Assembly (NCBI RefSeq): GCF_003426945.1
Contig: NZ_QURO01000004.1
Coordinates: 868,001-932,000, forward strand
Source of the DNA: Thermus sediminis
Lineage (GTDB): Bacteria; Deinococcota; Deinococci; Deinococcales; Thermaceae
DNA: 64,000 nucleotides
Direction: 5' to 3'
The notes beneath the pieces are model-generated. The model worked only from the letters and a program-made list of their open reading frames with translations. It did no database searches and was not told the DNA's origin. Every line of letters begins with the position of its first letter. The stretch's first letter is position 1. Below are positions 34,843 through 38,988 of the stretch, piece after piece. Both the position numbers and the translations under genes were made by a program.

Positions 34843-37800
34843 ATGGAATGTTCTTTTTTTGACGAACACGCCCAGGCCATCGCCAAGAGGCAGTACCTCC
34901 AGCCCGGGGACGGGGACATCCTGGGCATGTTCCGCCGGGTGGCCCGGGAGATCGCCAAACCCGAGAAGCCCGGGGAAAGGGCTTTCTGGGAGGAGAAGTT
35001 CTACGAGCTCATGGCCTCTAAGCGCTTCTCCCCCGGCGGGCGCATCCTGGCGGGGGCGGGCACAGCCCACGGCAACCTCCTCAACTGCTTCGTCCAAGGG
35101 GCCACGGAAAACCCTCCGGAGAGCTTCGAGGGCATCATGGAGGTGGCCAAAAAGCTGGCCCTGGTCACCAAGGTGGGGGGCGGAAACGGGGTGAACCTGG
35201 ACCCCTACCGCTCCAAAGGGAGCCGAAGGCGCCGGCCCGTGCAGGGAGTGGCCTACCTCTCCGCCCAGCACAAGGACCTCGAGGACTTCCTCCGCGGCCT
35301 CATGCGCCCCCCCACCAACCCCGAGGGGGAAAAGGAAGAGATCGCCCTCAAGAACTTCACCCGGGTGGTCTATGGCCCCCTTTCCCCGGAGATGCGGGCC
35401 CTGGCGGAGCGCCACGGGGTCCTCGTGGTGAAGGAGCCCCCAGAGGAGCGCATCCTGGTCCCCGACGACATGGGGGGGATCGTGGAGGCGGCCAGGGAGG
35501 CCGCAGACCTGGCCCGCAAGGGCCTCACCGCCCACGTGGACTTCTCCCTCCTAAGGCCCGAAGGGGCCCCCATCCGGGGAAGCGGAGGGACGAGCTCCGG
35601 CCCGGTAAGCTTCCTCTACGAGATCTTTGACCACTTCCTGGAGTGGGCGGCCCTGGGGGCAGAGGAGGCGGGCCCGGTGGCCACCCTGCGCTACGTCTAC
35701 GCTCCGGTGCTCCGGGTGGTGAGGCAGGGAGGCACAAGGCGTGGTGCGGGGATGGCCACCCTGGCCATCGACCACCCCGACCTCCTGGACTTCCTCACCG
35801 CCAAGGACCTGGACCGGGAGAAGGCCGAGGGGGACATCTCCACCTTTAACATCTCTGTCCTGGTCACCGAAGCCTTCATGCGGGCCCTGGAAGGGGATGA
35901 GCTCTGGCCCGTGACCCCCGTGGAGGTCCCCGGCAAGTACTACCCCTATCCCCTGGAGAGCCCCTATACCGGAAAGATCCCCAAGCTCCCGGAGAGAGAG
36001 GACGGGGCCAAGCCCATCCCCCTCTACGGGGGCAGGGTGCCCGCCAAGTGGCTCTGGCACGAGATCGCCTGGCACGCCTGGGCCACGGGGGAGCCGGGCC
36101 TCCTCTTTGTGGACCGCATCAACGAGCTCTCGGCCTTGAAGGGGCTGGGGGAACGCTACCAGATTCGTTCCACCAACCCCTGCTTTGTGGGATCCACAAG
36201 AATCCCCACCGAACGGGGGCTCTTACCCATTGAGGAGCTCGCACGTGAAGGGGGAAGCTTCTACCTGGTCACAGACAACCGGGCTCCCTTTGGAGGCGTG
36301 GGCGCCCCTGTATCCACCCAGGGCACCGCGGTGCGGAAGGCTGTCCGGGCCTTCTTCACCGGCGTCAAGCCCGTAGTCCGCCTTCGCACCCGGGAGGGCC
36401 TCGAGGTCACCCTCACTCCAGACCACCTTCTCCTAACGCCGGAAGGCTACCGGGAAGCGGGAACGCTTAGGCCGGGCGAAAAGATCTTGGTGCAAAGCGG
36501 CGAGGGGCTCTTCCCCAAGGAGGAGAGCCTACCCGCCCCCGCTCTGGCCGTGGTCCAAGAGAGGGTGGCCACTGCGGGAAGCCGGGGAAGCCAAGGCCGT
36601 GCCGACGTCCGAGCCCAGTACCGCCACCTCCCCACCCACTGGAGCCGGGAGCTCGGGGTGGCCTTGGGCTGGCTCTTAGGGGACGGCTATCTGCGGGAGG
36701 ACGGGGTGGGCTTTTACTTCTCCCGGAAGGACTTCGCCGCCCTCGCTTGGCTTCCCGACCTCCTCCGGGACTGGTTTGGCCCGGGCACCCTCCAGGAAAC
36801 CCGTTCCAACACCTTTCACCTTCACTTCAACCGTATCCCCGCAGAGTTCTTCCAGGCTCTTGGGGTCAAGGCGATTAGGGCCACGGAGAAGCGGGTCCCA
36901 GAAAGCCTCTTCCGCGCCCCCCGGGAAGCGGTGGTGGGCTTCCTCCAAGGGCTCTTCAGCGCCGACGGTTCGGTGCAAATTAATGAAAAAAAGCAGGACG
37001 CCACCATCCGTCTAGCTTCCTCTAGCCCAGCCCTCCTTCAGGATGTTCAACTTCTCCTCCTCAACCTGGGGATTCTCGGGAAGATCCACAGGCGCCGAGA
37101 AGCCGCTACCAAGGCCTTACCTGACGGTAAGGGTGGTCTCAAACAGTACCCGGTGGCGCCCCAGTACGAGCTCATCTTGGGAGGCGAAAACCGGGATCGG
37201 TTCGCCGAGGCCGTAGGCTTCCTGCAAGAGGAAAAGCAGTCCAAGCTCCTGGCCTTCTTGCGTCACCGGCCCCGGGGAAGCTACCGCAAGCCCTTCCTGG
37301 CCACGGTAGCCAGCGTGGAACCTGCTGGGGAAGCTCCCGTCTACGACCTTACAGAGCCTGTGACCCACAGCCTCATAGCAAATGGAATCGTTGCCCACAA
37401 CTGTGGTGAAATCCCCCTCACCGTGGGGGAGCCTTGCGACCTGGGGGCCCTGAACCTCGCCGCCTACGTGCGGGACGGGGAGTTCAGGATGGAGGAGTTC
37501 CGCCGGGACGTGCGCACCGCCATCCGCTTCCTGGACAACGTCCTGGACGTGAACCGATTCGCCCTCAAGGACAACGAGGAGGCCGCCAAGAGCCTCCGCC
37601 GCCTGGGCCTCGGGGTCATGGGCCTGGCGGACGCCCTCATCCGGATGGGCCTCCCCTACGCCTCCGAGGAGGCCAGGGAAAAGGTCCACGAGATCATCTC
37701 CGCCATGCGGGAGGAGGCCATCCGGGCTTCGGAGGGGCTGGCAGAAGAAAGGGGCCCCTTCCCCCTGTACGAGGCGCACCGGGACCACTTCCAGGCCCTG

Positions 37801-38988
37801 GGGGTCCGCCGCCGGCGCAACGTGGCCCTCCTCACCGTGGCCCCCACGGGGACCACCAGCATGCTCATGGGGGTGTCCTCGGGGATCGAGCCCGTCTTCA
37901 GCCCCTTCGTCTGGCGCAGGATCGGCGGGGAGTACAAGCCCCTCCTCCATCCCCTTTTCGTGGAGCTCATGGAGGCCTACCCCCCGGCCCCCGGCTACGA
38001 GCGGGACGGGAAGTGGGACTGGGAGAAGATCGTGGAGGAGATCCAAAGGGATGGGCACGGCTCTGTGCAGAACCTCCCCTTCGTCCCCGAGCCCATCCGG
38101 AAGGTCTTCCAGTGCGCCCACGACATCCCGCCCTTAGACCACGTCCGGATGCAGGGGGCGGTGCAGCGGGCCTTTGACGCCGAGGGATACGCGGCTAACT
38201 CCATCTCAAAAACGATAAATCTTCCAAATAACGCTTCCGTTGAGGACGTGGAGGAAGCCTACGCCGAGGCCTACCGCACGGGGTGCAAGGGGATCACCGT
38301 CTACCGGGACGGCTCCCGGGAGTTCCAGGTGCTCACGGTGAGGAGGGAAACGGAGGAGAAGGAGGAGGCTAAGGAGAAGGTAAAGACTTCCCTGGCCAGG
38401 GCGGAGGTTTCCCGGGCTTCCCAGGAGCCCTCCTCCCCCCAGGCCGGGAAACCCCTCCACGAGCGCCCGGGCCGCCTCCTAGGCTTCACGGACATGGTCA
38501 AGCTCCTCACCCCGGAAGGGGCCAAGCGGAGCTTCCTGGTGACGGTGAACGTCCTAGAGGGGCACCCTGTGGAGGTCATCCTCACCTCAGGCAAGGCCGG
38601 GGACGAGGCCAACGCCGACTCCGAGGCCTTGGGCCGGGTGGTCTCCATCGCCCTCCAGTACGGGGTGCCCAAGGAGGCCCTCATCCGCACCCTGAGGGGC
38701 ATCAACGGCGGGCTTTACGGCACCTACCAGGGGAGGCTCGTGTCCAGCAAGGCCGACCTCATCGCCGTGGCCCTGGAGACGATCCCCGAGGAACTGAAGG
38801 GGCGAGGGGCGAGGGGCGAGGGTCAAGGGTCCCAGGCCCCAGAGGCCGAACCCCCTCTCCCCGCCCTCTCCGGAGGCGGGGTGGAGATCCTGGGAGCCAG
38901 CCCCTGCCCCGCCTGCGGGGAAAGGGCCTTGGTGCGAGAAGAGGGCTGCTGGAAGTGCCAGGTGTGCGGCTACAGCAAGTGCGGGTAA
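34843..38988 (+). CDS. nrdJ: Class II (B12-dependent) ribonucleotide reductase with intein
   Basis: This enzyme reduces ribonucleotides to deoxyribonucleotides with adenosylcobalamin. The 1381-aa precursor has a 446-aa N-extein, a 407-aa intein (36181-37401) and a 528-aa C-extein, giving a 974-aa mature protein. Visible motifs are the substrate-site Cys in HGNLLNCFVQ, FNISVLV, the NxCxE active site formed by NP+CGEIPL across the splice junction, and APTGTTSMLMGVSSGIEPVFSP. The C-terminus has a TSCPD-like domain and a zinc ribbon (CPACGERAL ... CWKCQVCGYSKCG). No separate nrdB-type subunit is nearby, in line with class II. A leader with GGGAGGT precedes the ATG. trpF begins inside its last codons. 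Confidence 0.95.
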   Translation: MECSFFDEHAQAIAKRQYLQPGDGDILGMFRRVAREIAKPEKPGERAFWEEKFYELMASKRFSPGGRILAGAGTAHGNLLNCFVQGATENPPESFEGIMEVAKKLALVTKVGGGNGVNLDPYRSKGSRRRRPVQGVAYLSAQHKDLEDFLRGLMRPPTNPEGEKEEIALKNFTRVVYGPLSPEMRALAERHGVLVVKEPPEERILVPDDMGGIVEAAREAADLARKGLTAHVDFSLLRPEGAPIRGSGGTSSGPVSFLYEIFDHFLEWAALGAEEAGPVATLRYVYAPVLRVVRQGGTRRGAGMATLAIDHPDLLDFLTAKDLDREKAEGDISTFNISVLVTEAFMRALEGDELWPVTPVEVPGKYYPYPLESPYTGKIPKLPEREDGAKPIPLYGGRVPAKWLWHEIAWHAWATGEPGLLFVDRINELSALKGLGERYQIRSTNPCFVGSTRIPTERGLLPIEELAREGGSFYLVTDNRAPFGGVGAPVSTQGTAVRKAVRAFFTGVKPVVRLRTREGLEVTLTPDHLLLTPEGYREAGTLRPGEKILVQSGEGLFPKEESLPAPALAVVQERVATAGSRGSQGRADVRAQYRHLPTHWSRELGVALGWLLGDGYLREDGVGFYFSRKDFAALAWLPDLLRDWFGPGTLQETRSNTFHLHFNRIPAEFFQALGVKAIRATEKRVPESLFRAPREAVVGFLQGLFSADGSVQINEKKQDATIRLASSSPALLQDVQLLLLNLGILGKIHRRREAATKALPDGKGGLKQYPVAPQYELILGGENRDRFAEAVGFLQEEKQSKLLAFLRHRPRGSYRKPFLATVASVEPAGEAPVYDLTEPVTHSLIANGIVAHNCGEIPLTVGEPCDLGALNLAAYVRDGEFRMEEFRRDVRTAIRFLDNVLDVNRFALKDNEEAAKSLRRLGLGVMGLADALIRMGLPYASEEAREKVHEIISAMREEAIRASEGLAEERGPFPLYEAHRDHFQALGVRRRRNVALLTVAPTGTTSMLMGVSSGIEPVFSPFVWRRIGGEYKPLLHPLFVELMEAYPPAPGYERDGKWDWEKIVEEIQRDGHGSVQNLPFVPEPIRKVFQCAHDIPPLDHVRMQGAVQRAFDAEGYAANSISKTINLPNNASVEDVEEAYAEAYRTGCKGITVYRDGSREFQVLTVRRETEEKEEAKEKVKTSLARAEVSRASQEPSSPQAGKPLHERPGRLLGFTDMVKLLTPEGAKRSFLVTVNVLEGHPVEVILTSGKAGDEANADSEALGRVVSIALQYGVPKEALIRTLRGINGGLYGTYQGRLVSSKADLIAVALETIPEELKGRGARGEGQGSQAPEAEPPLPALSGGGVEILGASPCPACGERALVREEGCWKCQVCGYSKCG
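36181..37401 (+). mobile_element. Intein with LAGLIDADG homing endonuclease, in nrdJ
   Basis: The intein starts with Cys1 (CFVGSTRIPTERGLLPIEEL, block A), has block B TLTPDHLLLTPEGYREAG and ends LIANGIVAHN followed by extein Cys. The terminal His-Asn and Cys+1 are all present, so it should splice. Two LAGLIDADG-type motifs, ALGWLLGDGYL and LQGLFSADGSV, keep their acidic residues, so the homing endonuclease may be active. The insertion lies at NP/CGE, inside the NxCxE catalytic motif, a known RIR1-type intein site. Codon usage is slightly less GC-biased than the exteins (for example AATTAATGAAAAAAAG near 36978). Confidence 0.95.

Follow-up and report, generated by a model that had tools for sequence, protein, structure and literature searches.

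What kind of element interrupts the catalytic motif of the class II ribonucleotide reductase (RNR) NrdJ in Thermus sediminis, and how far does the cell depend on its removal? In the RNR family the cysteine of this motif bears the thiyl radical, and an earlier reading of a 64,000-nucleotide stretch of T. sediminis DNA (the window), made from the sequence alone, had placed an intein inside the NxCxE motif. Junctions and curated models bear this out to the base: T. sediminis nrdJ carries an intein precisely at its catalytic cysteine, with a match far beyond chance (Table 1).

The interrupted reductase and the anatomy of its intein

The host protein matches the NrdJ profile TIGR02504 with 622 bits (cut-off 400) as well as PF02867 and TSCPD (PF12637), and it has the NPC(G)E motif and C-terminal cysteines of a class II enzyme. 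The intein comprises residues 447-853 of the 1381-residue precursor, beginning with CFVGSTRIP and ending with SLIANGIVAHN. Its excision in silico yields ...IRSTNP-CGEIPLTVGEPCD, in which the host motif NP/CGE is whole again (here and below a slash marks an insertion point). The residues on either side of the break both align to the NPC of T. maritima NrdJ at position 322 (Cys322; PDB ID 1xje), and the +1 nucleophile of the intein is thus the radical cysteine of the enzyme. Because the intein parts Asn-Pro from this cysteine, there is strong reason to infer that NrdJ itself would be functional only once spliced, in line with the earlier argument that splicing is required to rebuild NPCGE.

A full set of splicing motifs and two LAGLIDADG motifs with acidic residues had likewise been reported, and alignment, Pfam and TIGR models recover all of them. 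Cys1, Thr79 and His82 of the TxxH block, His406-Asn407 and Cys+1 are in place, as are Asp389 and His396, and both halves of the intein show Hint homology. Intein_splicing (PF14890, 1.9e-9) and LAGLIDADG_3 (PF14528, 2.6e-22) score above their cut-offs, as do TIGR01445 and TIGR01443 for the N- and C-terminal intein regions, and both endonuclease aspartates, Asp168 and Asp262, are present. An AlphaFold2 model built with 23 relatives (mean pLDDT 89.6) has its top PDB fold matches among intein-endonucleases (TliVMA, 7qsu, E = 2e-22; PI-PfuI; PI-SceI), followed by I-DmoI, which matches the endonuclease part only. By its motifs, profiles and predicted fold, the element is a class 1 intein in which a LAGLIDADG homing endonuclease is nested. 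From the motifs observed we infer the usual chemistry: after translation the Hint domain would form a thioester at Cys1, Cys+1, also the radical cysteine, would attack it, and cyclization of Asn407 would leave the exteins joined as active NrdJ.

Table 1. Features of the T. sediminis nrdJ and nrdBA loci. Positions refer to the window unless another locus is named.
Feature	Position	Strand	Basis
nrdJ, class II (adenosylcobalamin-dependent) RNR precursor including the intein, 1381 aa	34843-38988	+	single open frame; TIGR02504, PF02867, TSCPD
N-extein, ending ...IRSTNP	34843-36180	+	
Empty site A (RQGG/TRRGAG)	35733/35734	+	junction comparison with Thermus nrdJ
Nine codons 5' of the insertion; codon choice tracks intein presence across Thermus	36154-36180	+	association tests
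Intein, site B, probable rir1-b allele, 407 aa	36181-37401	+	Pfam/TIGR matches, junctions, fold
Cys1, block A, first splicing nucleophile	36181-36183	+	invariant in 26-sequence alignment
Block B TPDH, residues 79-82 (Thr79, His82)	36415-36426	+	T79 and H82 invariant in 26-sequence alignment
First LAGLIDADG motif LGWLLGDG, catalytic Asp168	36664-36687	+	kept in 17 of 20 site-B inteins
Second LAGLIDADG motif FLQGLFSADG, catalytic Asp262	36940-36969	+	PF14528; D262 invariant in 26-sequence alignment
Blocks F and G, VYDLT...THSLIANGIVAHN, terminal His406-Asn407	37339-37401	+	TIGR01443; alignment
C-extein: barrel remainder, TSCPD domain, C-terminal CxxC region	37402-38985	+	
Cys+1 (TGT), catalytic thiyl-radical cysteine of NPCGE	37402-37404	+	aligned to 1xje residue 322
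Empty site C (SISK/TINLP)	38211/38212	+	junction comparison with Thermus nrdJ
AdoCbl riboswitch	L113:3810-3953		RF01482, 52.5 bits, gathering 50 (modest match)
Thioesterase-like frame, then nrdB-nrdA	L113:4428-7091; locus with riboswitch G000:C4:1909809-1913090		
nrdA, second large RNR subunit	L113:5409-7091 (G000:C4:1911408-1913090)		TIGR02510, 939 bits, cut-off 602

Inteins of Thermus nrdJ and their movement

All 27 Thermus genomes in our sample contain nrdJ, which has three insertion sites: A (RQGG/TRRGAG, 438 residues), B (NP/CGE, 404-410 residues) and C (SLSK/TINLP, 399-400 residues). They occur in all eight combinations. Seven genomes have none, three have A (in one of these, the fragmentary G020, the site was scored only from the gap), seven have B and two, near-identical to each other, have C; AB and AC are found once each, BC and ABC three times each. 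T. sediminis has B only, with no intein at sites A and C, as the sequence-only reading had it in noting one intein and empty sites elsewhere. The comparison among Thermus strains proposed there shows a patchy site B, occupied in 14 of the 27 genomes and intein-free in 13. Close relatives differ, G004 being AB and G018 having none. Site-B inteins are also found in five Meiothermus-type genomes and in another genus of the family (G071), and more diverged ones in Deinococcales (these last two group names being read from kinship and named contigs). A longer or nested B intein considered for Thermus sp. 2.9 (L039, 1776 nt) was discarded, as the junction-defined intein there has 407 residues. The nrdJ frame of G025 (L071, G025:C10:82900-90400) is broken 3' of the site-C intein, with the rest of the extein in another frame, a pseudogene or an assembly error.

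The state of site B changes at least seven times on the extein tree, and at least eight times for Thermus alone when the 80 codons round the site are left out. In the AU test, intein and extein data each reject the other's tree (p = 4e-45 and 2e-47). The inteins of G008 and G025 are 98.8% identical in nucleotide sequence, their exteins 80.0%; for G004 and G023 the values are 97.2% and 88.0%, and G004 and G008 show the opposite pattern (inteins 79.3%, genes 93.2%). In the intein tree, the sequence from Thermus G013 falls among the Meiothermus-type inteins, and the one from Meiothermus SKYB64 (G063) joins those of Thermus G021 and G024. Our search of viral contigs, phages and plasmids returned no carrier of the Thermus allele, only distant copies below 30% identity.

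Within Thermus, the endonuclease has the lowest median pairwise dN/dS (0.13), followed by the splicing part (0.18) and the extein (0.22); the endonuclease is kept by purifying selection, a low dN/dS being by itself no proof of endonuclease activity. The first catalytic aspartate, Asp168, is lost in G023 (GDG to GNG) and in G063 (GSG), and G059 has a degenerate copy with its endonuclease mostly lost or shrunken and both LAGLIDADG motifs gone.

The DNA next to the insertion carries a further trace. Across 26 Thermus nrdJ genes (14 carriers and 12 non-carriers), the six strongest of 716 codon-by-intein associations with B all fall at codons -9 to -1. Codon -3 is ACC in all 14 carriers and ACT or ACA in 9 of the 12 non-carriers, although these two account for only 5% of the Thr codons in the same genes. 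A Trp codon (TGG) at position -7 marks six of the 12 non-carriers and is absent from the carriers. This footprint is suggestive of co-conversion of the 5' flank or of target-site resistance, a grade that we do not exceed because an independent-pairs sign test, with at most three informative pairs, is not significant; for the same reason we rejected the association as proof of resistance alleles.

Tree conflict, near-identical inteins, selection and flank codons together form the sequence signature of a homing element, and the transferred and decaying copies are best read as stages of a homing cycle. Consistent with this evolutionary signature, the endonuclease would cleave, close to the junction, nrdJ alleles that lack the intein, and during repair the intein would be copied into the cut allele together with part of its 5' flank. 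As the target encodes the catalytic residue, its protein sequence is invariant, which should make imprecise loss and resistance mutations both difficult.

A second reductase and the dependence on splicing

The sequence-only reading had made DNA synthesis dependent on splicing. As stated, this is only partly supported: NrdJ itself would need splicing, but it is not the sole RNR of the cell. The T. sediminis genome has a class I nrdA, intein-free and complete-looking, with nrdB directly before it. NrdA contains what we take to be the catalytic NLCTE, the YY pair, the active-site cysteines and the C-terminal CRAC of a class I enzyme, and NrdB carries an ExExRHxxxY diiron/tyrosyl motif. Upstream of nrdB, at a distance of 475 nt, is an adenosylcobalamin (AdoCbl) riboswitch; a short thioesterase-like frame is all that separates the two, and cobalamin uptake and synthesis genes flank the locus. 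Just downstream of this cobalamin cluster is a strong TPP riboswitch (80 bits, L113:10394-10502). At the gathering threshold, a cobalamin riboswitch precedes nrdBA in 10 of 20 further Thermus loci. The nrdAB genes of Cutibacterium (Propionibacterium) acnes have an annotated cobalamin riboswitch as well, and nrdJ is thought to be the main RNR there when B12 suffices (PMC3848588).

We predict that the AdoCbl riboswitch represses nrdBA, assuming the OFF direction. Since the intein-free class I RNR lies behind this riboswitch, dependence on splicing in T. sediminis is probably conditional on B12. When B12 is plentiful, nrdBA would likely be off and NrdJ needed, and when B12 is scarce and air is present, NrdBA would likely do the work. 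A targeted search of the genome found no class III RNR, so that NrdJ should again be needed without oxygen. In T. sediminis, nrdBA would probably buffer the cost of the intein, splicing being obligatory for dNTP supply mainly while B12 is plentiful and nrdBA off.

For two other carriers, G005 and G010 (T. composti), we found neither NrdBA nor a second NrdJ. The intein-bearing NrdJ is the only RNR found, and dependence on splicing would be absolute. That they live on an interrupted NrdJ speaks well, if indirectly, for efficient splicing of site-B inteins. We saw no link between a backup RNR and carrying B, which occurs in NrdJ-only genomes and alongside one or two extra RNRs. Most Thermus genomes have a short (~590 aa) intein-free class II-like RNR with an NVCGE motif (L075-L078 and others), which is absent from T. 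sediminis, G005, G010, G014, G017 and G026. Five species share a near-identical nrdBA with a 713-aa open frame (G002:C47, G006:C32, G021:C10, G024:C21, G025:C22), in some cases beside another nrdA, possibly a mobile class I RNR of plasmid or phage origin.

The reading that we consider very likely is that of a mobile, mostly selfish class 1 intein, almost certainly rir1-b (see below), at the catalytic cysteine of nrdJ, with its cost probably buffered by nrdBA. Relatives with an inactivated or deleted endonuclease (G023, G063, G059) bring to mind a dead or decaying homing element, in which the endonuclease has ceased to cut and splicing is kept only for NrdJ's need. For T. sediminis this is unlikely, given that its copy retains both catalytic aspartates, that the endonuclease is constrained by selection no less strongly than the splicing domain, and that near-identical inteins were recently transferred within the clade. 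The presence of a second RNR could also mean that nrdJ is a pseudogene relic with a non-functional interruption and NrdBA the working enzyme. We find this barely credible for a fully open frame of 1381 residues with all splicing residues intact, an extein dN/dS of ~0.2 among B-carriers and a gene retained in every genome of the sample.

A regulatory intein would be one whose splicing is blocked by oxidation, metals or cold, NrdJ forming an inactive reserve while the intein-free NrdBA serves. The doubling of the radical cysteine as splicing nucleophile and the redundant RNR in the genome would suit such a role, as would the conditional splicing reported for the mycobacterial DnaB intein (PMC6195587) and the improved iron loading that the A. 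aeolicus R2 intein confers on its host (PMC8772380). We nevertheless regard it as very doubtful: patchy occurrence, close intein-free relatives (G004 against G018) and frequent transfer are what a selfish element would show, no special redox motif is seen except the shared cysteine, and an off state is hard to accommodate in the two genomes where the only RNR found is an NrdJ with the same intein. Highly improbable, in our estimate, is a B12- and redox-gated two-enzyme switch, in which the intein gates NrdJ maturation and the riboswitch-controlled class I RNR covers B12-poor or splicing-poor states. Were it real, oxidation would block both maturation and catalysis of NrdJ, and the buffer would make the parasite tolerated or even used.

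We retain the selfish, buffered intein as our reading. Taken alone, the site-B intein is ordinary for its kind; what makes it useful is its setting. Three inteins occur in every combination within a single thermophile gene, nrdJ of Thermus, in genomes that do or do not encode a backup RNR and in organisms of which many can be cultured, which amounts to a natural full factorial. This design makes it testable whether an intein costs or helps its host, and whether host redundancy buffers the invasion of a catalytic residue.

Relation to known inteins

RIR1 alleles of Thermus are already catalogued as rir1-b, rir1-g and rir1-m (PMC4071816): rir1-b is listed for T. thermophilus HB8 and T. igniterrae, with Bacillus also under this name, and rir1-g and rir1-m for T. 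thermophilus strains and T. aquaticus. These entries agree with the earlier statement that T. thermophilus strains carry RIR1 inteins, and they share host gene and genus with the T. sediminis intein. Site B is the same residue as that of the SPbeta BnrdE intein. Because Bacillus and T. thermophilus HB8 both stand under rir1-b and the SPbeta intein occupies the homologous residue, shared species and shared site make site B very probably the rir1-b allele. The site and its Thermus inteins are thus already known, and the T. sediminis copy is a further case; relative to the open-access literature, the pattern of eight combinations may be new, as may the footprint in the flank of site B.

Inteins at the homologous cysteine (NL/C...GN/C[ST]E) are found in SPbeta BnrdE, in an SPbeta-like Staphylococcus phage and in the nrdE of a Miltoncostaea plasmid. 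They share 27-28% similarity with site B over nearly their full length but differ in their class Ib NrdE host, in having a penultimate Gly in place of His, and in being phage- or plasmid-borne. The Meiothermus-type, Deinococcales and CPR inteins occupy the homologous site TNP/C...HN/CGE (HQ/C in some Deinococcales) in different hosts, with 63-69% identity to site B in Meiothermus-type genomes and 32-48% farther away; the G059 copy with its reduced endonuclease belongs to this set. Among the other Thermus inteins compared, the nearest to site B is that of the G019 class I nrdA (L079, G019:C2:234500-239500; 32.6%, E = 4e-24). It too sits at the homologous catalytic cysteine (NL/C...SN/CTE) but has a class I host, 366 residues and a terminal Ser-Asn. 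The T. sediminis genome itself has a second intein, of 425 residues, in the DNA polymerase III alpha gene dnaE (NK/C...HN/S; L074, G000:C4:1227000-1236500). The A. aeolicus R2 intein, for which experiments have demonstrated both splicing and improved iron loading of the host, resembles the site-B intein in splitting RNR catalytic residues and in making activity dependent on splicing, and differs in lying in the small subunit NrdB at a metal-ligand site (PMC8772380).
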